Below the pieces are notes generated by a model that saw nothing but the letters and a program-made list of their open reading frames with translations, searched no databases and was not told the origin of the DNA. The translations under genes and the position numbers were made by a program. This document shows, piece by piece, positions 61-11,837 of a stretch of DNA of 64,000 nt (positions within the stretch are counted from its first letter, which is position 1; the number at the start of each line of letters is the position of its first letter). Origin of the DNA: an uncultured Clostridia bacterium. Lineage in GTDB: Bacteria; Bacillota; Clostridia; TANB77; CAG-508. The DNA is taken from NCBI GenBank assembly GCA_949482135.1, contig CASYFC010000007.1:1-64000 (forward strand), written 5' to 3'.

Positions 61-714
61 TCACTTTTTTTTATATTGTGAAAATTTTGCTTTCGTATAC
101 CCCAAGTCTAATGCTTTATATAAGTATCTTGCTGCAACAGATGAGTATTTTCCCCATTTTTTACATTTGTTTATTATCGATTTTTTATCTGTTTTATTTG
201 TATTATATAGCCAAGAATATGCTTGAATAAAGGCCATATCTTCGTAGGGCAAAACATCATTTTTTCCAAGAACAAAGATTAAATACATTTTAGATGACCA
301 TTTTCCTATTCCTTTTATTTTTTGTAAACTTTGTTCTATTTCCAAATTATTTTTTGTAGTAAAAGATTCAAAATCTATTTCATTATTCAATACAGAATTT
401 GTTAAGTTCATAATATAGATTATTTTGGAATTTGAAATTCCAATGTTTTTTAATTCTGAATAAGATAATTTGATAACTTTTTCAGGAGAAACATGACCTT
501 TACATAAATCTAAAAGTCTATTGCTAATAATATCTGCTACTTTATTAGATAACATTTGACCTATAATAGTATTGACTAAGAATTCATATGAATCAGTATA
601 TAAAGTATATGATATTTCTCCTATTAAATTAAACAATATTTTCAAATGAGAATCTTTTTTTAAAAGATATTGAATTGATTCAGAATTTTCATTTAATATA
701 ATTGTATTACCCAT
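61..714 (-). CDS. AlkA-like DNA-3-methyladenine glycosylase (HhH-GPD)
   Basis: Base-excision repair glycosylase that would remove alkylated bases. The 217-aa protein has the helix-hairpin-helix motif KGIGKWS at residues 134-140, followed by the DVLPYED segment whose Asp159 sits where the AlkA catalytic Asp lies, and an upstream IIGQMLS segment typical of the family. GGAGG lies just before the ATG at 714. At 217 aa it has the HhH-GPD core but not the full E. coli AlkA N-terminal domain. It is divergent from the restriction island that starts at 867. A related HhH-GPD glycosylase is the main alternative; the fold is fairly certain, the substrate is inferred. Confidence 0.8.
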   Translation of the reverse strand: MGNTIILNENSESIQYLLKKDSHLKILFNLIGEISYTLYTDSYEFLVNTIIGQMLSNKVADIISNRLLDLCKGHVSPEKVIKLSYSELKNIGISNSKIIYIMNLTNSVLNNEIDFESFTTKNNLEIEQSLQKIKGIGKWSSKMYLIFVLGKNDVLPYEDMAFIQAYSWLYNTNKTDKKSIINKCKKWGKYSSVAARYLYKALDLGYTKAKFSQYKKK

Positions 715-803
715 AATTCCTCCATTTTAAGAAATAAAATATCATAAATAAATAGAAAAAGCAATATTGAAATTTGTATTTGCATTGAATATATTAAATA
801 ATG

Positions 804-818
804 CAAACATACAGTTTG
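804..818. promoter_or_regulatory. Possible operator upstream of XRE regulator
   Basis: The inverted repeat CAAAC-5 nt-GTTTG lies in the 150-base divergent gap, about 50 bases ahead of the XRE gene. A TTGACA box at 826-831 follows it, but no convincing -10 was found at the right spacing. A controller-protein operator is a guess based on position only. Confidence 0.25.
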
Positions 819-866
819 TTTATTTTTGACAATAAATAAGATAAGCTGGTCAAAAGGAGGAAGTAT

Positions 867-1097
867 ATGGATAGTAAACATTCAGAGAAATATATCAGAA
901 TAGGATTAAATATTTCATTACAAAGAAAATTAAAAAAGATGACACAGTTTGAATTAGCAGAAAAAATAGGCATTAGTAGAACACATATGAGTAATATAGA
1001 AGCTCCGAATATGATAACACCAGTGTCTTTAGAAGTAATTTTTGATATATGTGATGTTCTAGATATATCTCCAGAAATATTGTTTAAGATTAGTTAA
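867..1097 (+). CDS. XRE-family helix-turn-helix regulator (putative controller protein)
   Basis: A 76-aa protein that is almost entirely one Cro/CI-type helix-turn-helix: TQFELAEKIGIS then RTHMSNIE gives the two helices, at about residues 26-47. It has no sensor domain, matching the size and shape of the C proteins that set expression timing in restriction-modification loci. AAAGGAGGA precedes the ATG. It is the first gene of the island, 20 bases before a restriction-endonuclease-like gene and on the same strand, so control of the downstream nucleases is a reasonable inference. Autoregulation is suspected from the upstream inverted repeat but not shown. Confidence 0.85.
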   Translation: MDSKHSEKYIRIGLNISLQRKLKKMTQFELAEKIGISRTHMSNIEAPNMITPVSLEVIFDICDVLDISPEILFKIS

Positions 1098-1116
1098 TTC
1101 ATATATGTAGAAAGAT

Positions 1117-1677
1117 ATGAAGCAAGTTAAAGTAAAATTAAAAGATGGAACGATTGTTATAGGCGATGAATTTGATATGGAAGATTATAAAAAGTTTAAG
1201 CAAATTTTTCGTAAATGGACAAATATAAATTTAGATTTAAAACAATTTGGTGGAAGGAATTTAAATGTGCCAGATGTGTTTAGTGAAGCTTTATATTGTA
1301 TTTTCTTTAATGCAGTTAGAACAAATGGTACAGCACACTCATATGATGCAGTAGATAAAACTACAGGTGAGGGAATTCAAATAAAATCAGCTTCTATAAA
1401 AACTGATTGTACTTCATTTGGACCTACTTCAACTTGGGACAAGTTGATTTTTGCAGATTTAGCTCCATCTGGAAAAGTGGATGGTAATGTGTGGTTTTAT
1501 GAGATAGATTCAACCAATATATATAATATAATTTTAAATAGTAAGAAAAATGAGACTTTTAGAGACCAGCAAGAACAAGGAAGACGACCAAGACTTTCAA
1601 TAAAAGATAAAATAATTATCCCATTAGGTTTAACCCCAATAAAGAAGATTAACTTAATGGAGGATAATGATGAGTAA
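1117..1677 (+). CDS. Bsp6I-like type II restriction endonuclease (putative)
   Basis: A 186-aa protein whose middle resembles the Bsp6I restriction endonuclease family as I recall it. It has a PD-(D/E)XK-like core: SYDAVD (Asp77/Asp80), then GIQIKSAS (Gln88-Ile-Lys90), with a conserved-looking VFSEAL helix (Glu57) upstream and a TSFGPTSTWD segment after it. Bsp6I cuts GCNGC, but the known Bsp6I partner is a C5-cytosine methylase, while the methylase here is N6/N4 type, so the specificity cannot be transferred. The stop overlaps the start of the next nuclease-like gene (ATGATGAGTAA), implying translational coupling. The nuclease fold is likely; the family assignment is moderate. Confidence 0.6.
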   Translation: MKQVKVKLKDGTIVIGDEFDMEDYKKFKQIFRKWTNINLDLKQFGGRNLNVPDVFSEALYCIFFNAVRTNGTAHSYDAVDKTTGEGIQIKSASIKTDCTSFGPTSTWDKLIFADLAPSGKVDGNVWFYEIDSTNIYNIILNSKKNETFRDQQEQGRRPRLSIKDKIIIPLGLTPIKKINLMEDNDE

Positions 1678-2800
1678 TGATGTTATAGTTAATATAGAGG
1701 ATATTAAAAAAGCAGTTTATTTTATATCAAACTTAACTCAGATGCAAGGAAATAGGCCAATGAGAGGAGCTTTAAATTCAAAAGGTGATTATATGGGAGG
1801 AATATTTGATAGATGGATAAATATTATTCCAGAAGGTGTTGTTTTTAATAAAATTATTCTTCCAAAGATAGCTGATAAGAAAGATGTTAAAGTAATTACT
1901 GATTATTATGATTATGATCCAAAACAGGTGGGTATTGCTCCAGATGTGATAGGAATAAGTGTAAATAAAAAAGCAATACCATTTGTAAAATTTGATGAAA
2001 AATGGATGCCTGTGAATGGAAAGCCACAAATTGAAGTAAAAACATTTAAGAAAAATCAAAAAATGGTTTCATTAAGAAACCAAGGATATGATAATAAATA
2101 TTTAGTTCTAGCAGAAACTAATTTTAGAGTAGATTATTTAGTACCTTTAATAAATGAAGAAATTTATTCTGACGACATATATAATGAATTATATATGAAT
2201 GATGATGTATTTATAGTTTCTAATGAAAATCAAATGATAGCACAATCTAGAAAGATAGATATGGAAAGAAAAGATATTGGAACAATAAGTCTTTTAGGAA
2301 TAACTACTGCTAGCGAATTTATGAATAAAGCAACTAAGTGTGATGCAGGTGTAAGTGTTGAGTATTTTGCAGAAGTAGAAGAAAATCAAAGTAAAAGAAG
2401 TATAACTGGTTCTGTTGGAATGTTAAAAGATTACTGTTCGATAAATAATGATGGCCTTTTAAAATTAAATAATAATTGGTATGATAAAATTGATTTTGAT
2501 GGAATGACATATAAATATAACAAAAAGATAAAAACATTGGATTTTTTTGTTAGTGATATTGAAGCAATAGAAATTTTAAAAATGTGTAAAAGTAAAATAA
2601 CTATTAAAGTGCATAAAGATTGTATATGGGAAGATACAAAATTAGAAAAAGGAAAGAATTATGATATTACCATAAAAAATTTAGATAGAAGTGGCTCTAC
2701 CGGTGAAGAATATTTTCTTTTGAAAACTTCAATTTCTAAATTAAAAAACGAAGAAGATAAACTATTATTTGATTTGAAAAAAGTAATTGATAATAATTAA
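1670..2800 (+). CDS. Second PD-(D/E)XK nuclease-like protein
   Basis: I do not recognise a named family. The 377-residue open frame has two adjacent ATGs (1667 and 1670); GGAGG at 1659-1663 fits 1670 better. In full-frame numbering, APDVIG (Asp93) and PQIEVKT (Glu123-Val-Lys125) form a textbook PD...ExK active site, followed by KNQKMVSLRNQG, which resembles the helix after the catalytic lysine in restriction enzymes. The C-terminal 150 residues have no motif I can name and could be a DNA-recognition domain. It overlaps the end of the Bsp6I-like gene. It may be the real partner of the N6-type methylase, a heterosubunit, or an additional effector. Confidence 0.55.
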   Translation: MSNDVIVNIEDIKKAVYFISNLTQMQGNRPMRGALNSKGDYMGGIFDRWINIIPEGVVFNKIILPKIADKKDVKVITDYYDYDPKQVGIAPDVIGISVNKKAIPFVKFDEKWMPVNGKPQIEVKTFKKNQKMVSLRNQGYDNKYLVLAETNFRVDYLVPLINEEIYSDDIYNELYMNDDVFIVSNENQMIAQSRKIDMERKDIGTISLLGITTASEFMNKATKCDAGVSVEYFAEVEENQSKRSITGSVGMLKDYCSINNDGLLKLNNNWYDKIDFDGMTYKYNKKIKTLDFFVSDIEAIEILKMCKSKITIKVHKDCIWEDTKLEKGKNYDITIKNLDRSGSTGEEYFLLKTSISKLKNEEDKLLFDLKKVIDNN

Positions 2801-2907
2801 AACAAATAAAATATAAGAATCGTAAAGTAAGAATATAATTAATGATTATATAGTTATTAATATAAATGATAAGTTAAGTAATAAAACTGTTGAAGGAAAT
2901 GATATGT

Positions 2908-3753
2908 ATGAAAAAAGAAGAATTATCTGAAACGGAAAACAAAATTATGGAAGATATAAAAATATTTACTCAAAAATTGGATAATGCATATAAAATAAGA
3001 TATGGAACATCGGAAATTGAATTTAGAAAATATATTTTAACTGATAGTGATTTTATATACTTGTTTTTCTTTATGTACATACAGTCAAAATTTTATAAAC
3101 ATGATAGTGAAGAGGATATAAAAATAAATAGAAAGATATCAGAACAATTGCAAAATATTATATTTGAAATGTATATTATCTTTGAATTTGATATTTTTGA
3201 TGAGTCAAATTTATTTAAAGAAGTATCAGAAAATGAATATGAGATGTTGTACAATTTAAATAAAACACAAAATCTTATTTTAAAAACTAGAATTTTATGG
3301 GAAAAAGTAATGAATTTTTCATATTTAATTATAGAAAGAAAAGAATTAGAAGCTTCAAAATCTAAAAAGAAAAAATTTAAAAGGTGGTGTGAACAAAAAA
3401 ATATTAATTTTTTTGACAGTGCTATAAATAAATTAGAAGCTTTTGATAGTGCTTTTAGAACAGGAGAAGTTCATGAATATTCTAAATTAAAAAAATATTT
3501 TATAATGGATGAAAATCAAAACATTAATTTGTATTGTTTAGATTTGTTATTTAAATTTTCTAATGAAACAATTTTAAATATTTTTGCATATATATGTGAA
3601 AAAGAAACTAATTATAAAATGTGGCAAAAACTACCAGACAATATTTCAGAAGAATTAAAAGAATTTACAAGAATTCCAGAATGGGTAACTAAATATTCTA
3701 AAGATAATGATATAGATATCAATCAAGATGGAGTAGTAATAAAAAACTTTTAA
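2908..3753 (+). CDS. Unknown protein with HEPN-like R-x4-H motif
   Basis: A 281-aa, highly charged, largely helical protein. FRTGEVHEYSKL, around residues 183-194, contains Arg184-x4-His189, the catalytic signature of HEPN RNases, and resembles Cthe-2314-type HEPN domains as I remember them. The start was moved from TTG 2890 to ATG 2908 because AAGGA at 2893-2897 is correctly spaced only for that codon. An 88-base gap separates it from the previous gene and 34 bases from the methylase. In this context it would be an RNA-cutting effector, but only the short motif supports this; a structural or scaffold role is equally possible. Confidence 0.45.
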   Translation: MKKEELSETENKIMEDIKIFTQKLDNAYKIRYGTSEIEFRKYILTDSDFIYLFFFMYIQSKFYKHDSEEDIKINRKISEQLQNIIFEMYIIFEFDIFDESNLFKEVSENEYEMLYNLNKTQNLILKTRILWEKVMNFSYLIIERKELEASKSKKKKFKRWCEQKNINFFDSAINKLEAFDSAFRTGEVHEYSKLKKYFIMDENQNINLYCLDLLFKFSNETILNIFAYICEKETNYKMWQKLPDNISEELKEFTRIPEWVTKYSKDNDIDINQDGVVIKNF

Positions 3754-3787
3754 ATTAAAGTTAAAAAATAAAACTATAGGTGAGAAA

Positions 3788-5230
3788 ATGGAAGAAGATT
3801 ATAGAAGTTTATGTCAAGTTTTTACACCATCTAAAAATGTTAAAGAATTACTAGATTGGTGTGATTATAGAGAAAATCTATATGGAAAAAAGATAATGGA
3901 AAATTCATGTGGTGATGGACATATTTTACAAGAAGTTGTAAGACGATATATAGAAGATTGCCTAAAAAATAAATTTTCGAAATGTAAGATAAAAAATGGT
4001 CTTAATAGGGATATATATGCTATAGAATATGATTCAGAACAATATGACAAATGTAAAAAAAATTTAAATATAATATTAAAACAATATAATATAGAAAATA
4101 TAAAGTGGACGAATGTAATAAATGATGATACACTAAAAAATGAAGATACACAAAAATTTGATTTTGTTGTTGGAAATCCACCATACATAAAATATAAATC
4201 TTTGTGTATTGAAGATAGAGATTATATAAAGAAAAAATTTAAGACATGCAAAACTGGAAAATTTGATTACTGCTATGCTTTTATTGAAAAAAGCATAGAT
4301 TCTTTAAATGATAACGGAATATTGGCATATTTAATACCAAGTAGTGTTTTTAAAAATGTGTTCGCAGAAGAATTAAGAAATTATATAAAACCACATATAT
4401 TAAAAATATATGACTATACTAGCATAAAATTATTTACGAGAGAAACAATTGATCAAGATAGATTAACATCTTCTTCTGTTATGATATTAAAGAAGAATAG
4501 TAATGAAGATAATATAGAATATATTGATATATCTAAAAACAATACATTAACAATACCAAAAAGTAATCTAGTGAAAAAATGGATTTTTAGAGAAAATGTA
4601 TTAGATGAAGATAAAGAGAATAAATTTAGTGACTATTTTTATGCTTCTAATACAATTGCAACTTTATACAATAAAGCATATGTAGTTAGTGGCTATACAG
4701 AAACAGAGAAATATATACGAACAAAAGATGGTTATGAGATAGAGAAGGAAATTTTACGCGATACTATAAGTCCAAAAAACTTTAAGAAGAATAAGAAAGA
4801 AAAAATAATTTTCCCATATTACTATGAAAATGGAGAGTTAAGAAGATATACGCAAGAAATTTTTGAACAGAGATATCCTAAAGCATGTAAGTATTTGAAG
4901 AAATATAACAATTTTTTAGAGAAAAGAATGTCTGATAAAAGTGCAAAATGGTTTGAATATGGAAGAAGTCAAGCATTACGTAATAGTAATAAACAAAAAA
5001 TATTATTATCTACTGTAATAACAAATGAAGTAAAATTAGAATTATTATCTGAAGATAATATACCATATTCGGGTATATATATTACTAAAAAAGGTAATAA
5101 AAGCTTGAAAGAAGCTGAAAAAATTCTAAAGAGTAATAAATTTTTAGAGTATATTCAAGCAAAGGGAATCAATGCAAGTGGTAATTCTCTTAGAATTACA
5201 TCACGAGATATTAATGAGTTTATGTTTTAA
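3788..5230 (+). CDS. N6-adenine-type DNA methyltransferase (Eco57I/TaqI-like)
   Basis: Transfers a methyl group from S-adenosylmethionine to DNA, most likely adenine N6. Motif X-like QVFTP is at residues 10-14, motif I ENSCGDGH at 38-45, an acidic IYAIEYD strand near 76-82, and the catalytic motif IV NPPY at 130-133, giving gamma-class order. The C-terminal half (to residue 480) is long enough to hold the target-recognition domain. AGGTGAG precedes the ATG. It should protect host DNA from one or both nuclease-like proteins upstream; recognition sequence cannot be read from sequence. No frameshift is seen, so the methylase appears intact. Confidence 0.88.
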   Translation: MEEDYRSLCQVFTPSKNVKELLDWCDYRENLYGKKIMENSCGDGHILQEVVRRYIEDCLKNKFSKCKIKNGLNRDIYAIEYDSEQYDKCKKNLNIILKQYNIENIKWTNVINDDTLKNEDTQKFDFVVGNPPYIKYKSLCIEDRDYIKKKFKTCKTGKFDYCYAFIEKSIDSLNDNGILAYLIPSSVFKNVFAEELRNYIKPHILKIYDYTSIKLFTRETIDQDRLTSSSVMILKKNSNEDNIEYIDISKNNTLTIPKSNLVKKWIFRENVLDEDKENKFSDYFYASNTIATLYNKAYVVSGYTETEKYIRTKDGYEIEKEILRDTISPKNFKKNKKEKIIFPYYYENGELRRYTQEIFEQRYPKACKYLKKYNNFLEKRMSDKSAKWFEYGRSQALRNSNKQKILLSTVITNEVKLELLSEDNIPYSGIYITKKGNKSLKEAEKILKSNKFLEYIQAKGINASGNSLRITSRDINEFMF

Positions 5231-5244
5231 AATAGGTGGTATAA

Positions 5245-7704
5245 ATGGAAAAAGTAGAATTTAGAGTTAGTGCAAAGGCAGCAAAATTAATAGGAAGAGA
5301 AAATATTTCGGCAGTAGATGGAGCTATAATAGAATTAGTAAAAAATGCATATGATGCTGATGCGGAATGTGTTTATATACAATATAATATGCCATTTCCT
5401 AATATATTAAAAAATACGACATATACATATTTAGAACACTATTTAAAAAAAGAAGAACTAAAGTTTGTGTTGAATTTTTATGAAGAAAAAAAAGATAGAC
5501 TTATAAGGAAAGACGAATTGACAGAGGAAGAAATTAACTCGTTGCAATCAGTATTATTTTCTAAAAATGAAATTATTATCATTGATAATGGTACAGGAAT
5601 GACTAAAAATACAATGAAAACTACATGGATGAACATAGCAACTAGCGATAAAGAAAAGAATATGTATAGTCAAAAAGGAAGAGTAAAAACAGGAGCTAAA
5701 GGAATAGGTAGGTTTGCCTTAGAAAAATTATCATTAGAAACAGAAGTATATACAAAAAATGTTAATGATAAGTTAATTAATTGGAGTATTGATTGGAAAC
5801 AATTTGATAATGTAGAATTACTAAATGAGATAAGAGCTAACTTAGATGAAAAAGACAAATTCTCATATGTTGATGTTATTAAAGAAAAAATTGGAGATAT
5901 GGCTTTTGTGGAAATTAGCAAATTTAACTGGAATACGGGAACAATGATTATATTAAAACCTACAAGAGAAGAGTGGACAGATAGATTGTTTAAAAAGGTT
6001 AACAATAATATCCAAAGTATCAACCCAATAGGAAGTGTAGATACTTTTGAAGTACATATAGATAATGAATATAATAAAGAATTTAGCTATGTTACAAAAA
6101 ATATTGATATAGAAGATTATGATTATAGAATAAAAGCAGATTATGATGGAAATAATAACCTAAAAATATTATTAAAAAGAAATGAAGTTGATATAAATAA
6201 AAAAGATATTAGTATTAAAGTAGGTGATAACACATATAATTTTTCATTAAATGAATTTTGGAAAAGAGAAGCCTTTAAAAAAATTAATTATACAAGAGAT
6301 AGCTATGAAAGTGAAATAGAAATTAATCTTTGTGTAGATAAATTTGTAAAAGATTATGAAATTGAAAAAATTAGACAAGTTGGTCCATTTTCGAGCATTA
6401 TGTATTTTATGAAATCTGGAAATGGAGAAATAGGTATAATAAAAAAAGTTAAGGTTAAAACAAGAAAAGAGTTGTTGAATAATTTTTCAGGAATAAAATT
6501 ATATAGAGATAATTTCAAGGTTAGACCTTATGGAGAAATGGATGATGGAATGTTTGACTGGTTAAATATGGGGTTGAGAGCACAAAAAAGTCCAGCAGGT
6601 ATTAGCCATAAAAGTGGAAATTGGAGAGTTTTACCATATCAATTAATTGGTTGGATTAATATAGGTAGAAAAGAAAACTATAAACTTGTTGATATGGCAA
6701 ATCGAGAAGGATTAGCAACAAATGAACAGTATTACATATTCATAGAAATAATACAAGAAATATTAAGCACTTTTGAGTTTGACAGGCAGTATATATATAG
6801 AGAATATGCTAAATGGATAGATTTAAAAACTGATGAAATTGATAAAAAAAATAAAATTATAGAATCTGTATATAAAGAGAGAGAAAAAAAGGATAGTTCT
6901 TATACAGAAAAAGAAGATGAATATTCTAAAAAAGATTATAGAGAAACAGTTTTTGAATTGGCAAAAGAAAAAAGTGAAGAACAGAAAACAAAAGAAATTT
7001 TAATGTCATTTGGAACAGCAGGAATTATAACAAATACATTTTCCCATGAATTAAGAGGAATAGAAAATGAAATGGGAACTAGAATGCAATATATAAGACA
7101 TACAGTAAAAAAATTACTAAATGGTAATGAATATGAAGGAGATGAAGATCTTAATCCTTTTATGTTTATTGATGAAGCAGAAAAAACTGATAAGTTGCTT
7201 AATAGTTGGATATCAGTAGTAATTGATGGAGTACAGAAAAATTCATTTGAAAAAGAAGAAATTAATATGTTAAAATTTGTAGAAAATATTATTAATGAAT
7301 GGACACCATTAATGGAGAAAAAACATATATTTTTCAATAAACCAGAAATTGAAGATATAAAAATTGATATAGAAAAAGTAGATTTATATGCAATATTCAA
7401 TAATTTCTTTTTAAATTCTGCTTGGTTTTTAGAAAAATTACAAGGGAGAAGAAGAGAAATTAATATTAAAATTCTTAAAAAAGATACTATTGAAATATAT
7501 CTTGAAAATAATGGGCCAATTTTAGATAATAAATATAAAGATAATCCAGACAGAGTTTTTAATGCAGGAGAAACAAGTAAAGGTGATAAAGGAACTGGAC
7601 TAGGATTATGGATAATGAGAGAAGTAATAAATAAAAATGATGGAGAAATACATATAATGCAAAAAGAAGATGGCTTTGGAATAAAAATTAATATCCCCAT
7701 ATAA
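5245..7704 (+). CDS. Dual-GHKL ATPase: MORC/HSP90-like N-terminus plus histidine kinase C-terminus
   Basis: An 819-aa protein with two ATP-binding GHKL modules. The first has an N-box ELVKNAYDADA at 30-40, DNGTGM at 114-119 and GAKGIGRFALEKL at 150-162, the HSP90/MutL/MORC arrangement. A long middle region with charged coiled-coil character follows (about 520-590). The C-terminus is histidine-kinase-like: FSHELRG with candidate phospho-acceptor His601, N-box NNFFLNSAW near 719-727, and GDKGTGLGLW at 780-789. No membrane segment is visible, so it is cytosolic. It is followed 12 bases later by a receiver protein. MutL/MORC-type ATPases linked to R-M loci are known; this dual architecture with a cognate receiver suggests ATP- and phosphorylation-gated DNA sensing. 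Confidence 0.8.
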   Translation: MEKVEFRVSAKAAKLIGRENISAVDGAIIELVKNAYDADAECVYIQYNMPFPNILKNTTYTYLEHYLKKEELKFVLNFYEEKKDRLIRKDELTEEEINSLQSVLFSKNEIIIIDNGTGMTKNTMKTTWMNIATSDKEKNMYSQKGRVKTGAKGIGRFALEKLSLETEVYTKNVNDKLINWSIDWKQFDNVELLNEIRANLDEKDKFSYVDVIKEKIGDMAFVEISKFNWNTGTMIILKPTREEWTDRLFKKVNNNIQSINPIGSVDTFEVHIDNEYNKEFSYVTKNIDIEDYDYRIKADYDGNNNLKILLKRNEVDINKKDISIKVGDNTYNFSLNEFWKREAFKKINYTRDSYESEIEINLCVDKFVKDYEIEKIRQVGPFSSIMYFMKSGNGEIGIIKKVKVKTRKELLNNFSGIKLYRDNFKVRPYGEMDDGMFDWLNMGLRAQKSPAGISHKSGNWRVLPYQLIGWINIGRKENYKLVDMANREGLATNEQYYIFIEIIQEILSTFEFDRQYIYREYAKWIDLKTDEIDKKNKIIESVYKEREKKDSSYTEKEDEYSKKDYRETVFELAKEKSEEQKTKEILMSFGTAGIITNTFSHELRGIENEMGTRMQYIRHTVKKLLNGNEYEGDEDLNPFMFIDEAEKTDKLLNSWISVVIDGVQKNSFEKEEINMLKFVENIINEWTPLMEKKHIFFNKPEIEDIKIDIEKVDLYAIFNNFFLNSAWFLEKLQGRRREINIKILKKDTIEIYLENNGPILDNKYKDNPDRVFNAGETSKGDKGTGLGLWIMREVINKNDGEIHIMQKEDGFGIKINIPI

Positions 7705-7716
7705 TAGGAGGTCTCA

Positions 7717-8379
7717 ATGAATAAGTATATAGTGGGTATAATTGATGATGAACAAAATATTATTAGAAAAATTAGGGGAACAATAAAGGAAAATAGGCCA
7801 GAAGATATAGAATTAGATTTTAAAACATATTTTTTAGAGAATGAAAATGGTATTTCAATAAAAAAAATGTCTAAAGAAATATTAGAGGATATAAAAAACA
7901 ATAAAATTAATACGTTAATTATAGATCAAAAAATTATTATGAATGCTGGCGAAGTAGAAGGAATAGAAATATTTAAAAACATAAAAGATGTGGTTGATAA
8001 ATTTCCTGTAATAATGCTTACTAATGTTGCAGATGAGTGTATAAAAGATGATTTTGTAGATCCTGATAAGGTATATAAAAAAAGTGATTTTTTTGCTATT
8101 GATGAGGAAAAATCAAAAGAATTAGTAAGAAAAATATTTATCAATGCAAAAAAATATAATGATAATCGAATGCAAATTGAAGCAAAAATAAGAGTATTGC
8201 AAGATAAAATTTCTAAAAATGGAAATAATGCGGAAATTGTTAGTGAAATAATAGATAATGAAGAAAAACTTAGTGAGTTGAAACCAACAGATTATACACA
8301 AATTGAGAAAATTGTAAATCCACAAAAAATAAAAGATGTATTAGATTTATTAAATGAAGTAAATAATTTATTGGAGTAA
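7717..8379 (+). CDS. Response-regulator receiver protein with coiled-coil tail
   Basis: A 220-aa protein with a CheY-like receiver domain: acidic pair Asp10-Asp11 (IIDDE), predicted phospho-acceptor Asp70 in LIIDQK, Thr102 in MLTN and Lys121/Lys122 in VYKKSDF. The tail from about residue 145 is heptad-rich and has no DNA-binding domain, so it is not a usual transcription factor. It sits 12 bases after the histidine-kinase-containing ATPase, with AGGAGG before its ATG, and 3 bases before an HNH nuclease gene. The likely job is to relay phosphorylation from His601 of the upstream protein to a partner, perhaps the nuclease. The partner is inferred from order alone. Confidence 0.8.
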   Translation: MNKYIVGIIDDEQNIIRKIRGTIKENRPEDIELDFKTYFLENENGISIKKMSKEILEDIKNNKINTLIIDQKIIMNAGEVEGIEIFKNIKDVVDKFPVIMLTNVADECIKDDFVDPDKVYKKSDFFAIDEEKSKELVRKIFINAKKYNDNRMQIEAKIRVLQDKISKNGNNAEIVSEIIDNEEKLSELKPTDYTQIEKIVNPQKIKDVLDLLNEVNNLLE

Positions 8380-8382
8380 GAA

Positions 8383-9000
8383 ATGAAATATGATGAATTT
8401 AGAGATTTTAAAATAGAAAGAACATGCAATAAAGAATATAAACATTATAAAAGTTATAAAAAATTTTTAAAAAAAGATTTCCACTGTAGATGTGCTTATT
8501 GTAATACTTGGGATTTCATAATTGAACCATTAGGATTTGCAATTGATCATTATGTACCAAGAAAGATATTTAAAAATATAAATAAAACGTTTGATAATAA
8601 TTATAATAATTTAATGTACGTTTGTCCTAAATGTAATAGAGAAAAGTCGGACAAGTTTAAAGGAAATACTGATAATTTAGAAATAAAAAATGAATTATTC
8701 TATAATCCAGTTGAAAAAAATTATAATGAAATATTTTTTAGAAATGAATTTGGTGGAATAGATTCAAAAGATAAAAAAGCGAGAGAAATTATGAAGGAAT
8801 TAAAATTATATAGACCATTATATAATTTTGCTTGGTTGCTTGAAAAATTAATAAATACAAGAGAAAAAATAAAATCTAAACTAGAAGAGCCAGAAATATC
8901 TTCTGAAAAAAAAGAAAAATTAGAAGAGTGTTTGGCTAAAACAAATGATTATTACATAGATATGGAAAAACTATTTAAGAAGAGTTATAAAATGAAGTGA
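8383..9000 (+). CDS. HNH endonuclease
   Basis: A 205-aa HNH-family nuclease. The zinc-binding pair Cys37-x2-Cys40 (CAYC) is followed by the catalytic IDHYVP segment (Asp55-His56), an NNL turn at 75-77, and the second pair CPKCN at 81-85 with REKSD, a complete HNH/zinc-finger order. The C-terminal half is helical and charged. The gene starts three bases after the receiver gene and ends the island with a TGA, followed by a hairpin. It is probably the effector of the ATPase/receiver pair, or an additional restriction nuclease. The nuclease call is strong; the role is inferred. Confidence 0.85.
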   Translation: MKYDEFRDFKIERTCNKEYKHYKSYKKFLKKDFHCRCAYCNTWDFIIEPLGFAIDHYVPRKIFKNINKTFDNNYNNLMYVCPKCNREKSDKFKGNTDNLEIKNELFYNPVEKNYNEIFFRNEFGGIDSKDKKAREIMKELKLYRPLYNFAWLLEKLINTREKIKSKLEEPEISSEKKEKLEECLAKTNDYYIDMEKLFKKSYKMK

Positions 9001-9052: not shown

Positions 9053-9078
9053 AAGGCGAGAATTAATCTCGCCTTTCT
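9053..9078 (+). terminator. Terminator of the restriction/signalling island
   Basis: Perfect 9-bp stem AAGGCGAGA / TCTCGCCTT with a five-base loop, 53 bases after the HNH stop codon. The following T tract is short (TTTC), so efficiency is uncertain. Confidence 0.7.
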
Positions 9079-9102: not shown

Positions 9103-9131
9103 TTTTAAAGTGCAAATTTTGCACTTTAAAA
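9103..9131 (-). terminator. Palindrome at the end of the small minus-strand gene
   Basis: A 14-bp perfect inverted repeat with a single central base, made of TTTTAAAGTGCAAA and its complement, overlapping the stop codon at 9126. Half of the unit (TAAAGTGCAA) also occurs at 9085-9094. Read on the minus strand, the stem ends in T residues, so a terminator is likely; convergent transcription could use it from both sides. Confidence 0.5.
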
Positions 9132-9431
9132 TGGAATGTTATTTTCTTCACACCCTTTAATCAGTTGTACACCATCAACAAACCCATTCCTATAATACTT
9201 TTCTCTCCAATAACAAATATAATCAAGAAAATTATCATCAATCTTATCGAACTGTTTCTTAACATATTTTTTGTTTTGATTAGGAACATTCCTTAAAATA
9301 TTTTCAAAAAACTCATCAAAGTAAATATCATGTTTTTTATCTTCATTATTGGTAAAAGGAAAAAGTGTAGACTCTCTACATTCTATCCATTCTTTTAAAA
9401 TATCATCATTAACTTCTCTAAAATTATTCAT
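9126..9431 (-). CDS. Small hypothetical protein (mobile-element type)
   Basis: A 101-aa acidic protein I cannot name. The frame is open back to 9500, but GGAGG at spacing 8 ahead of ATG 9431 decides the start. It has a helical middle (FDEFFENILRNV) and a C-terminal YRNGFVDGVQL segment that resembles small DUF6809-type proteins often found in clostridial integrated elements; that resemblance is from memory and weak. It lies alone between two accessory patches, opposite in strand to both. Confidence 0.5.
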   Translation of the reverse strand: MNNFREVNDDILKEWIECRESTLFPFTNNEDKKHDIYFDEFFENILRNVPNQNKKYVKKQFDKIDDNFLDYICYWREKYYRNGFVDGVQLIKGCEENNIPF

Positions 9432-9811
9432 TGTTAAAACCTCCATTTTTATAAATTTCAAATTAAGCACATCAAAACACAATAAAACCTGCAAAAACAA
9501 ATTTAAAAATTCATTGAAATTTCATGTATTTGATGCCTCAAAAAACTGGGGACAAACTGGGGACAATTGTTGAAAAAATAGACCATTTTTAACCTAATTC
9601 ATAATCATACCAATTTGCTATAACCCAATTAAAACTAATAAAAACTCAAGTTAACAAAATTTCTCAAAAATCTCAATCAAATTCTCATAACCCGAAAGTA
9701 TAATTTTAGTATTATAGTCAAAAAATTAACAAAAAAATTTACAATAACAATTGATATTTATATGTAAGATATAGTAATATCAAAATATAATAAATTAAAT
9801 TATAAAGTGAG
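9432..9811. other. Gene-free stretch with tandem 11-mer
   Basis: A 380-base gap with no supportable gene. It holds two back-to-back copies of ACTGGGGACAA at 9545-9566, much more G-rich than the surroundings, followed by very AT-rich sequence to the next start. No integrase gene is nearby. The tandem repeat could be a scar of an integrated element, but nothing else supports that. Confidence 0.5.
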
Positions 9812-10297: not shown

Positions 10298-10345
10298 ATG
10301 AAGTCTAAGAAAGAATACATCATACAATATAAATATGAAAACTAA
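10298..10345 (+). CDS. 15-codon leader ORF overlapping the HEPN gene
   Basis: AAAGGAGCGT is ideally spaced before ATG 10298, which opens a 15-residue frame (MKSKKEYIIQYKYEN) ending in TAA at 10343-10345. It overlaps the first 11 bases of the HEPN gene, whose own ATG at 10335 has no visible ribosome binding site. The simplest reading is a translated leader peptide that couples or limits HEPN translation. Confidence 0.55.
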   Translation: MKSKKEYIIQYKYEN

Positions 10346-11051
10346 AGAAATAAAAAATGAATTAAATAATTTAATAAATCAAGGAGTAAATCTTGCACAA
10401 GCTATATTAGAAAATAATTTAAAAATAATTATGTTAGATTATGAATGTTGGTATAGTAAAAGCTTAATTTATATAAAGAAACTTAATAAAGATAGGGTAA
10501 ACGATTTTAAAAGTTTGTATAAATTAGAAAAAAGGAAAGAAATAAGATATTCAACTTATACAATTTCAGACGCATTAAATGGAGTATGTATACCGAGTGA
10601 AGAACTTGAACCATCAAGTGCTTATTCAAAAATGATACAACAGATTAGTATTTTAAAGGCGACTAAAGAATTATTAGAATCTAAAATTTATCAATTACAA
10701 GAATTATTACAAGCAGATATATTTGATTCAGAACTAAATAGTGCAAAAGAGTTGAATAATAAAGGGTTTTATAGAGCTGCTGGAGCAATATGTGGGGTTA
10801 TTCTTGAAGAACATTTTTCTCATGTTATTAAAGAACATGGACTTGTTTCAAATAAGAAAAATTTAACTATAAATGATTATAATGAACTTTTGAAAAATAA
10901 TTCTATAATTGATACTCCAACTTTTAGACATGTTCAATTATTAGGAGATATTAGAAATTTATGTGATCATAAGAAAAGTGATGATCCAAAAAAAAAGCAA
11001 ATTGAAGATTTGATATCTGGGACAGAAAAAATAATAAAAACAGTTTTTTAA
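10335..11051 (+). CDS. HEPN-domain protein with RNxxxH motif
   Basis: A 238-aa protein. The C-terminal 100 residues look like a HEPN/DUF4145-type domain: AKELNNKGFYRAAGAICGV is the usual paired helix, and DIRNLCDHKK carries Arg217-Asn-x3-His222, the RNase signature. The N-terminal 130 residues are helical with no motif I know. Translation appears coupled to the leader ORF because there is no Shine-Dalgarno at its own ATG. With the upstream XRE gene and the downstream DUF2971-like gene it forms a small stress or defence cassette; the target RNA is unknown. Confidence 0.65.
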   Translation: MKTKEIKNELNNLINQGVNLAQAILENNLKIIMLDYECWYSKSLIYIKKLNKDRVNDFKSLYKLEKRKEIRYSTYTISDALNGVCIPSEELEPSSAYSKMIQQISILKATKELLESKIYQLQELLQADIFDSELNSAKELNNKGFYRAAGAICGVILEEHFSHVIKEHGLVSNKKNLTINDYNELLKNNSIIDTPTFRHVQLLGDIRNLCDHKKSDDPKKKQIEDLISGTEKIIKTVF

Positions 11052-11082
11052 ATATAGTATTATAAATGAGAGGAGATAAAAT

Positions 11083-11837
11083 ATGGAACAGAAATATCCA
11101 GAATATTTATATCATTATACGAGTATTGACAATTTAGCTTTGATATTAAAAAATAAAACAATTAGGTTTAATAGTTTAATTAATGTTGATGATCCTGATG
11201 AAATAAAAACTATAGATACAGAAGGAATAGGAAAATATTGTTATTGCAGTTGTTGGACTGATAAAGAGGAAAGTATTCCATTTTGGAATATGTACACTAA
11301 AGATATGCATGGAGTAATGCTTAAAATGATAAAATTTCCATTTGATAGTTATAAAGAATTTTTGCCGTATTATGCGGGAGGAGAATTTGTAGATACATAT
11401 ATTCCAAAGTATATATATATGACTCAAATAGATTATATACTATTCCAACAATACCATTTTTGAGAAAAGTTAAGTATGTGGATAATCCAAATATTAAAAT
11501 TTTTGATTATGTGGAGAAAAATTACGATGGGTCTTTTAATGCAGCAGGTAATATGAATAAGGTAGGAGAATATAAAACTTTAGCTTGGTCATTTCAATCT
11601 GAATGGAGATATTCAATGGTATTATTACCACATACTATAGATGGAAAACTGGACATAGACGTGTCAAACCAAAATAAAGGAATGTTACAAAATTATTATG
11701 ATATTAAAATTAACGATAATGCTTTTAAGGATATGGAAATTGTAACTGGGCCTAAAATGAACGCAGGAGAAAAATTATTATTAGAAGCAATATGCCAAAA
11801 ATATGCACCAAGTGTAAAAATTTCAAATAGTATTTAA
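11083..11837 (+). pseudogene. DUF2971-like gene split by a frameshift at a (TA)n tract
   Basis: Two consecutive frames, 11083-11463 and 11460-11837, read as one protein. The first starts with YLYHYTSIDNLALILKNK and FNSLINVDDPDE, typical of DUF2971 proteins, and the second supplies the FQSEWRYSM half. Frames differ by two bases. The switch can be placed exactly at TATATATATAT (11410-11420): removing one TA gives YIYDSNRLYTIPTIPFL and a 250-aa protein. AGAGGAG precedes the ATG. Either it is a recent pseudogene or expression is switched by tract length. The function of DUF2971 is not known to me beyond association with defence-like loci. Confidence 0.65.

Follow-up and report, generated by a model that had tools for sequence, protein, structure and literature searches.

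Phosphorelay from a histidine kinase to a receiver is reportedly used for phage defence by the Detocs system, whose components are DtcA, DtcB and DtcC; its sensor and effectors are of other kinds, and it is not known to include a methylase. GHKL ATPases are described in several related settings: i) passages of a 2021 paper (Bellieny-Rabelo, PMC8011034) report dual-GHKL kinases with receivers beside restriction-modification (R-M) genes, link these HEF_HK pairs to paraMORCs and mention HNH_2 neighbours as well as N6/N4 methylases; ii) passages on paraMORC1 (Iyer 2008, PMC2292703) describe, in an R-M context, operons of a GHKL ATPase with a conserved C-terminal extension and sometimes HNH neighbours; iii) passages on VcSduA, a paraMORC3 Shedu protein (PMC12137116), describe a GHKL ATPase fused to a PD-(D/E)xK nuclease, which protects against phage and for which both activities are needed.

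The window analysed here is a stretch of 64,000 nucleotides from an uncultured Clostridia bacterium. A preliminary description of its positions 867 to 9000 proposed one defence locus of eight genes (g1 to g8), all in one direction and closed by a hairpin, in which a kinase and a receiver would control an HNH nuclease.

Two systems side by side

All eight open reading frames (ORFs) are real and lie on the plus strand, with ATG starts except for g4 (TTG). They are not a single locus: g5-g8 form a unit, g1-g3 make up one end of another R-M cassette, of the Bsp6I type, and g4 is an orphan between the two systems. Within the cassette, g1 (867..1097) is the XRE controller that had been proposed (HTH_3, 4.1e-9), and g2 (1117..1677), noted earlier as nuclease-like, is a type II restriction nuclease of the Bsp6I family (PF09504, 1.9e-14; PADLOC REase_II, 7.5e-29). 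The other protein called nuclease-like, g3 (1667..2800), matched no family but does carry a PD-x29-ExK string, which is also found in both g3 homologues (spacing 29 and 31); elsewhere g3 stands beside C5-methylase cassettes. An HhH-GPD glycosylase (61..714, minus strand; PF00730, 2.6e-11) belongs to the same cassette. The gene order around g2 is the same in loci L171 and L173, and in L173 the glycosylase occupies the same place, between the C5 methylase and the XRE gene. In the window's own genome a C5 methylase (PF00145, 1.7e-73) lies at the end of a separate contig, C15, where the genes are ordered as in L173, and we infer that C15 joins the contig of the window.

For g4 (2890..3753; 287 aa), which had been called HEPN-like, no credible family match was obtained, and a search of 191 genomes of the order turned up no copy but its own. 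One RTGEVH string occurs within it; the HEPN label found no support.

The idea that all eight genes make up one defence system draws on their common strand and short gaps. On the other hand, phmmer (E ≤ 1e-3) over 8349 ORFs from the kinase loci and the window returned no homologues of g2, g3 or g4 and, for g1, only two weak, general XRE matches; moreover, in the related genome G455 the same g1-g3 cassette is accompanied by a C5 methylase and then by different cargo. We therefore discarded the eight-gene unit, which has become scarcely credible. The place is a site whose cargo differs between related genomes, and a 103-aa gene flanking it in the window (9126..9437, minus strand) recurs in G455 at the equivalent site, next to different cargo. 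A hairpin does lie 3' of g8 (9053..9075); in the scan, however, its T-tract scored on the minus strand, as that of the convergent gene, and the hairpin may serve both convergent units.

Kinase, receiver and HNH nuclease

The core opens with g5 (3788..5230), an Eco57I-type N6-adenine methylase (PF07669, 1.3e-22) with the expected NPPY motif, predicted to be the modification and specificity module. It is followed by g6 (5245..7704), whose 819-aa product has the two GHKL domains claimed for it (HATPase_c_3, 8.7e-11; HATPase_c, 7.6e-10); both domains were found in 50 of 50 kinase relatives. The N-terminal part carries MORC/MutL-like ATPase residues (N34, D114, G116, G118, G150-G155), and the C-terminal part comprises a DHp with His601 and a CA domain with N720, N724, G757 and G783-G787. 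His601, the predicted phospho-acceptor, proposed earlier, lies within FSHEL (codon 7045..7047, plus strand, computed from the g6 start) and is invariant in all 148 aligned kinases, i.e., 80/80 from loci with the kinase-receiver-HNH trio and 68/68 others. Since the kinase loci were selected for resemblance to the window kinase and for the N-terminal motifs, conservation of those motifs is partly by construction. In PDB comparison the family profile matched sensor kinases (1.1e-23), MORC3 (1.5e-5 and 1.6e-5) and MutL (1.8e-5), MORC3 and MutL being the N-terminal matches among the best 60 of 68. The hydropathy maximum of g6 (0.83) does not suggest a membrane segment. Neither g6 nor g7 matched a PADLOC model at E ≤ 1, and the matches among the 50 relatives were to GHKL-type REase_II models (30 and 14), MzaB (4), PDC-M43B (4) and TmtA (1).

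The receiver gene g7 (7717..8379) encodes a receiver domain and a C-terminal tail. Its Response_reg match (7.5e-4) falls below the cut-off, D10-D11, D70, T102 and K122 are all in place, and the family profile matches the PhoP receiver (6.8e-8). Asp70, named earlier as the acceptor, lies in LIID (predicted phospho-acceptor codon 7924..7926, plus strand); it is kept in 80/80 receivers, and an Asp is found in 58/59 next-gene products of the wider family. T102 is T in 78 and S in 2 of 80, K122 is K in 66 and R in 8 of 80, and positions conserved at 93% or above are D10, D70, G82 and T102 only. Judged by sequence, the pair bears the hallmarks of two-component signalling (H-box His, N and G boxes, Asp, acid pair, T/S and K).

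Being genuine by sequence, kinase and receiver might be thought to regulate transcription at promoters, a reading we consider improbable. No DNA-binding output domain was found in g7, and among 63 receivers any given helix-turn-helix family matched one at most; furthermore the kinase has a MORC-type ATPase as its input and no membrane segment, and the genes for receiver and HNH abut or overlap and diverge together.

That gene, g8 (8383..9000), encodes the HNH nuclease announced earlier (PF01844, 2e-6), which resembles PtuB and retron HNH proteins (PADLOC PtuB, 7.9e-15) and is the predicted effector. C37, Y39, H56, N76, C81, N85 and K88 are each kept in 80/80. The HNH also matches a PtuA1 model that carries a fused HNH part.

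Conservation of the unit and a proposed phosphorelay

In 66 testable genome loci (the best relatives), an HNH gene adjoined the kinase in 64 and a methylase in 62, a methylase counting as adjacent, with all ORFs considered, when it lay up to 300 nt ahead of the kinase or up to 2500 nt past the kinase end; two loci were without recognised receiver and HNH genes, and four without an adjacent methylase. A receiver-sized gene missed by the receiver profile is present in L082 and L085, and the HNH was not recognised in L087 and L093. Spacing is tight: the median kinase-receiver gap is 2 nt, receiver and HNH genes overlap by a median of 1 nt, and each gap is ≤20 nt in 73/75. In viral loci the trio was found in only 11 of 63 testable cases. 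Conservation as neighbours in other genomes, which the preliminary description had expected of all eight genes, thus fails for g1-g4 and holds for g5-g8. The expected defence context of the trio was found as well, in the form of an adjoining DNA-modification gene and some defence genes nearby; in the comparison of neighbours of the kinase loci (138, with 37 proteins of one genome as control), many of the matched PADLOC models overlap, describing the same handful of proteins. A modification gene lies within 5 kb in 77/80 trios (N6) and in 51/68 other loci (N6, C5 or SspD).

Kinase, receiver and HNH nuclease co-diverge, while the methylase is swapped. Correlations were 0.89 for kinase-receiver, 0.89 for kinase-HNH and 0.81 for receiver-HNH. 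Those with the methylase were 0.57 (kinase), 0.45 (receiver) and 0.47 (HNH), based on 73 of 76 methylases, whose larger distances lower the correlation by that alone. Permutation maxima were ≤0.20 throughout. The NPP columns are kept in 74/76 methylases. Exchange is seen directly in pairs of loci (pairs with fragments, L077 and L023, being left out): in L066/L083 the methylases are 79% identical and the kinases 27%, and in L038/L068 the kinases are 46% identical and the methylase match is partial, at about 20%. Some related loci have a C5 methylase or Ssp phosphorothioation genes in place of the N6 methylase, and some an MBL-fold protein in place of the HNH.

These data bear on a conventional type II system, in which the HNH nuclease would cut the specific sequence that the methylase recognises, and kinase and receiver would be accessory. 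Methylase and nuclease are indeed neighbours in the majority of the testable loci; against this, they share less history than kinase and HNH do, close methylase relatives occur beside distant HNH proteins, and the only families that Pfam gives for g8 are HNH ones. We regard this alternative as very unlikely.

Abortive infection deserves more weight, and we hold it to be a minority possibility, roughly one to be expected in a handful of such cases. The phosphorelay would then sense infection and the HNH would attack host DNA or tRNA, as some retron-linked PtuB-type HNH proteins do, with the methylase either protecting the chromosome until triggering or acting as a co-sensor. Consistent with this, the closest solved relatives of g8 are PtuB (8ee7, 9e-7 with the family profile) and the retron Ec78 HNH, the model TIGR02646 ("retron system putative HNH endonuclease") matches at 2.5e-7, under its cut-off, and another effector type exists at related loci. 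On the other hand, an indiscriminate killer would need no methylase, and the regular presence of one next to the kinase counts against it.

The unit is rare. Matches were found in two of 398 genomes of the phylum, one of them over the N-terminal third only; in the own order nine of 56 genomes matched, at full length only the own genome and G045, and the rest partially, mostly over the kinase part. The window kinase had no match among 50,697 phage records, the Pantoea kinase gave six partial matches to phage records, and a distant blastn search with the Pantoea kinase found no E. coli homologue in 20,395 records. We read g5-g8 as a self-contained unit that moves horizontally between very different bacteria.

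We favour, with somewhat better than even confidence, the reading of g5-g8 as a restriction system run by phosphorelay. The g5 methylase would mark host DNA and, as the part open to exchange, define which sequence counts as "self". The MORC/MutL-like ATPase of g6 would sense DNA or a methylase-DNA complex, possibly by clamping DNA as proposed before. Foreign DNA lacking the modification, or a signal from a phage, would alter this ATPase such that the C-terminal kinase autophosphorylates His601, and the phosphate would pass to Asp70 of g7. Because no DNA-binding output can be recognised in g7, this receiver would act on g8 through protein contact, and the released HNH would cut nucleic acid. 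The features from which we reason are read from the sequences directly: the conserved unit, the intact catalytic and phospho-acceptor residues, co-divergence, methylase swapping and the other effector in related loci. From them we infer the phosphate transfer and its sense (an activating one, not the lifting of an inhibition), as well as signal, substrate and phage protection.

More tentatively, and with slightly less than even confidence, the loci may represent a general class of "phosphorelay restriction". In it, one MORC-kinase/receiver core would tell self from non-self by interchangeable DNA marks (N6-methyladenine, 5-methylcytosine, phosphorothioate) and trigger interchangeable effectors (HNH, MBL-fold, receiver-fused), so that cutting would be decided by signalling and the modification module would lend the system its sequence specificity. 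If so, restriction need not be hard-wired into a DNA-reading enzyme: "foreign" would be worked out by a histidine kinase and acted on by a generic nuclease, and the swapping of methylases without host death would be explained. Two-component signalling would then have a direct role in the innate immunity of bacteria, and MORC-type GHKL sensors, which also occur in animals and plants, would become testable via single His or Asp substitutions in a four-gene plasmid.

Comparison with known systems

With Septu and retron PtuB proteins g8 shares the HNH fold and motif, and PtuB is its best match in both PADLOC and PDB. Septu pairs PtuA with PtuB; no PtuA-type ATPase was recognised in g6, and the partner of the PtuB-like g8 is a kinase/receiver pair. 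VcSduA likewise has a GHKL ATPase, whose middle domain is predicted to resemble a clamp and which is proposed to control a nuclease; it is a single polypeptide, and the passages concerned (PMC12137116) do not describe a histidine kinase, receiver, methylase or HNH for it. In the paraMORC1 text (PMC2292703) the word "receiver" does not occur. A description of the four-gene unit was not found in the main texts of open-licence PubMed Central papers, and we came across no phosphotransfer, cleavage or phage assay of a member.

The closest architecture is that of HEF_HK (PF19191) and Response_reg_2 (PF19192), given in passages of PMC8011034 as a soluble kinase of HATPase_c_3, DHp and HATPase_c with an adjacent receiver in an R-M neighbourhood. 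The window has the same arrangement in g6-g7, a dual-domain kinase next to a receiver gene in R-M context. The novelty that had been claimed is thus reduced, as a GHKL kinase/receiver pair by R-M genes was already in print there, but the window pair falls outside the corresponding domain models. PF19191 had no match in g6 at E ≤ 1 and at most one in 50 kinase relatives (among 25 of 26 families listed); PF19192 had none in g7 at E ≤ 1 and at most one in 63 relatives (among 25 of 70 families listed). As both models failed, g6 and g7 were not filed under these families although the architecture is the same. At three loci that do match PF19191, the receivers, assigned by position, are 555-637 aa long, C5-methylase-like genes lie beside two (by eye), and the HNH and N6-methylase profiles recognise no protein. 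In comparison with the HEF_HK pairs, g6-type loci regularly partner an HNH gene of ~200 aa and an N6 methylase.

Window genes and a split Bsp6I-type cassette

An ORF check confirmed the eight genes g1 to g8 (867-9000) at the positions of the preliminary description, in a genome of 22 contigs (2.0 Mb) where base 1 of contig C7 is the window start. Domain searches identified g1 as an XRE protein, g2 as a Bsp6I restriction endonuclease (PF09504, 1.9e-14), g5 as an Eco57I methylase (1.3e-22), g6 as HATPase_c_3 plus HATPase_c, g7 through a weak Response_reg match and g8 as HNH, and assigned no family to g3 (377 aa) or g4 (287 aa). The N-terminal GHKL part of g6 also matched NF050001 (BbrUII/HgiDII family restriction enzyme) at 3.5e-9, far under the cut-off.

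The eight genes had been proposed to form one locus; they proved to be two systems. Among 8349 ORFs of the kinase loci and the window (phmmer, E<=1e-3), g2, g3 and g4 had no homologues and g1 had two weak XRE matches. Within the order, g4 was found in its own genome only (191 genomes), and g3 homologues in two other genomes (143 searched). In G455, from a different genus within the family, the genes are arranged as a 158-aa gene, a C5 methylase, an HhH-GPD glycosylase (other strand), XRE, the Bsp6I nuclease and g3, and this stretch matches window 64-2060 at 79% DNA identity. Moreover, the end of C15, another contig of the window genome, carries a C5 methylase (PF00145, 1.7e-73) and a 158-aa gene. 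Thus the simplest reading of g1-g3 is the right-hand portion of a Bsp6I-type R-M cassette severed by a contig break; the cassette is apparently split over C7 (window 61-714) and C15 (83-1788), with an HhH-GPD glycosylase between the C5 methylase and the XRE gene, and gene order leads us to infer that these contig ends join. Like Vsr, the glycosylase may help to repair deaminated methylcytosine. By eye the two contig ends are similar, as if a repeat insertion had interrupted assembly.

In G455 the cargo 3' of g3 comprises a 287-aa protein (sub-threshold DUF5677 match), proteins of 79 and 330 aa and a 1297-aa protein (AAA_22/NACHT matches slightly under cut-offs), followed by a gene related to window 9126-9437 (73% DNA identity over 257 bases). 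Therefore window g4-g8 occupy a place that in a related genome is taken by other genes.

The minus-strand gene at 9126-9437 encodes 103 aa. Of 53 genomes of the genus, 32 have at least one match to this protein, and 12 of the 32 have two or more; its neighbours differ among the loci inspected, and it could mark a defence hotspot. Further on (10335-11837) lies a 238-aa protein that contains RNLCDH, looks HEPN-like by eye and has no Pfam match; behind it are two short frames that overlap and may represent a single broken gene.

The g5-g8 unit and its predicted phosphorelay residues

An alignment of four kinases used to scan genome_contigs gave at least 588 motif matches and at least 522 relatives, of which 80 were kept; an IMG/VR scan gave 69 loci. 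After removal of genome loci without a kinase ORF of 400 aa (2), with partial kinases (6) or with <1500 bases downstream (6), 66 were left. The predicted co-occurrence of the dual-GHKL gene with receiver and HNH genes held in 62 of these; two others (L082, L085) had an HNH gene and a receiver-sized gene missed by the receiver profile, and in L087 and L093 neither partner was recognised. A methylase lying no more than 300 nt ahead of the kinase or 2500 nt past its end was present in 62/66, after the kinase in 37 and before it in 25. The closest relative found, G045 (74% kinase identity), has all four genes g5-g8. The genes are tightly packed, with a median kinase-receiver gap of 2 nt and a median receiver-HNH overlap of 1 nt (each <=20 nt in 73/75). 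Among 63 testable viral loci of 69, 11 had the trio of kinase, receiver and HNH, and in 52 HNH was unrecognised, mostly with a longer next gene as judged by gene length. By record title, hosts of the genome loci include Bacillota, Bacteroidota, Pseudomonadota, Desulfobacterales, Gastranaerophilales, TM6 and Planctomycetes, and kinase loci also lie on plasmids of Bacteroides, Salipiger, Deinococcus and Ensifer.

Several individual loci were also inspected. The G045 quartet adjoins a DpnII-type-looking cassette (by eye). At L087:12120-13933 a kinase-receiver pair precedes a 208-aa protein resembling endonuclease III/HhH glycosylases by eye, in the position of HNH. Plasmid records matching the window kinase were Campylobacter in 41 of 59; on one of these plasmids (L016) the kinase's partners are a receiver of 340 aa and a cytosine methylase in convergent orientation. 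Genes annotated glucitol/sorbitol PTS adjoin the loci on both a Klebsiella (L209) and an Enterobacter (L017) plasmid, which may point to a common hotspot; the kinase of L209 is split into several annotated pieces and probably broken.

His601 as the H-box histidine of g6 and Asp70 as the receiver aspartate of g7 were located as claimed, and both were invariant (80/80 each) in complete trios (84 minus 4 with incomplete genes), in which receivers were 13-54% identical to that of the window. In the receiver, D10, D70, G82 and T102 alone were conserved at >=93%, K122 was lysine in 66 and arginine in 8, and N720, N724, G757, G783, G785 and G787 of the kinase CA domain were each 80/80; the N-terminal ATPase motifs were intact, but partly preselected by the search patterns. 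In 68 further kinases, from loci not tallied as complete trios, the histidine (68/68) and the tested ATP-site residues (68/68, except G783: 64 G, 4 S) were retained, and the aspartate occupied the aligned column in 58/59 next-gene products (exception L154); the receiver profile found 24 of the 59 at E<=1e-3, so that the remainder rest on alignment. Against solved structures, the kinase profile matched sensor kinases over DHp and CA (1.1e-23) and, at its N-terminus, MORC3 and MutL; the receiver profile matched PhoP and the HNH profile PtuB. A 19-residue hydropathy >1.6 occurred in 2/80 kinases. Each HTH family matched at most one of 63 receivers, which makes a role as transcription factor less likely.

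Flanking proteins (138 of 207 candidates) matched 232 PADLOC families at E<=1e-10, including mad2 (4 proteins), type IIG (4), mad5 (3) and many type I specificity subunit models (3 proteins each); the tally is by family, with many redundant models hitting the same proteins, and yields no fraction. As control, 37 proteins from the far part of the window, a smaller set from one genome, matched 2 families. This defence context is modest support.

Methylase exchange and alternative predicted effectors

Tree distances agreed closely for kinase-receiver (0.89), kinase-HNH (0.89) and receiver-HNH (0.81), and less for the methylase with kinase (0.57), receiver (0.45) or HNH (0.47); over 73 loci, permutation maxima were <=0.20. 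L066 and L083 have methylases 79% identical over full length and kinases 27% identical, while L038 and L068 share 46% in the kinases and ~20% over a partial alignment of the methylases. Methylases have thus passed between trios. The kinase tree shows 5 changes of methylase position (shuffled mean 24.6); it is mostly inherited within clades, yet mobile. Were the nuclease to have a matching site of its own, it should track the methylase; it tracks the kinase instead, suggesting a generic nuclease, with specificity from the methylase or from a kinase sensing DNA state.

A modification gene lay within 5 kb in 77/80 trios (N6) and 51/68 other loci (N6, C5 or SspD). An MBL-fold protein stands where HNH is expected in L019:4358-9492 (annotation), L134:5912-10995 (PF00753) and, by layout, L141 and L158; in L211 (Pseudanabaena), annotated MBL pieces after the receiver flank an IS982 transposase. 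Four of these five loci have an N6-type methylase in front. In three loci matching PF19191, the published HEF_HK kinase family, the kinase has 785-1003 aa and the gene after it encodes 555-637 aa; two of these loci adjoin C5-methylase-like genes (by eye). The trio-family kinase profile matched all three, and its receiver, HNH and N6-methylase profiles matched none.

On a Chlorohelix plasmid (L018:416-13299), SspB- and SspD-type genes (PADLOC) and a cysteine desulfurase, together a phosphorothioation module, surround the kinase and the 714-aa product of the gene after it; in L208:4765-9882 a gene resembling the L018 SspD (by eye) precedes the kinase. In both, a kinase with a long receiver-like protein sits among Ssp-type genes, as if phosphorelay had supplanted the usual restriction part.

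Relation to known systems

In open-licence PubMed Central we found no description of a family outside PF19191/PF19192 with regular HNH and N6-methylase partners, of methylase/effector exchange around a constant kinase/receiver core, or of an SspB/SspD-linked kinase/receiver variant. Components of the arrangement are known: R-M operons can encode paraMORC GHKL ATPases, in some cases together with HNH genes (Iyer 2008, PMC2292703), and a kinase/receiver pair and its R-M link have been described (Bellieny-Rabelo 2021, PMC8011034). Furthermore, VcSduA, in which a nuclease is fused to a GHKL ATPase, gives phage protection (PMC12137116), histidine kinase genes lie next to SspE in 211 Acinetobacter strains (PMC7464106), and the last figure legend of DefensePredictor lists, for predicted but not yet validated systems, domains that include HATPase and REC.
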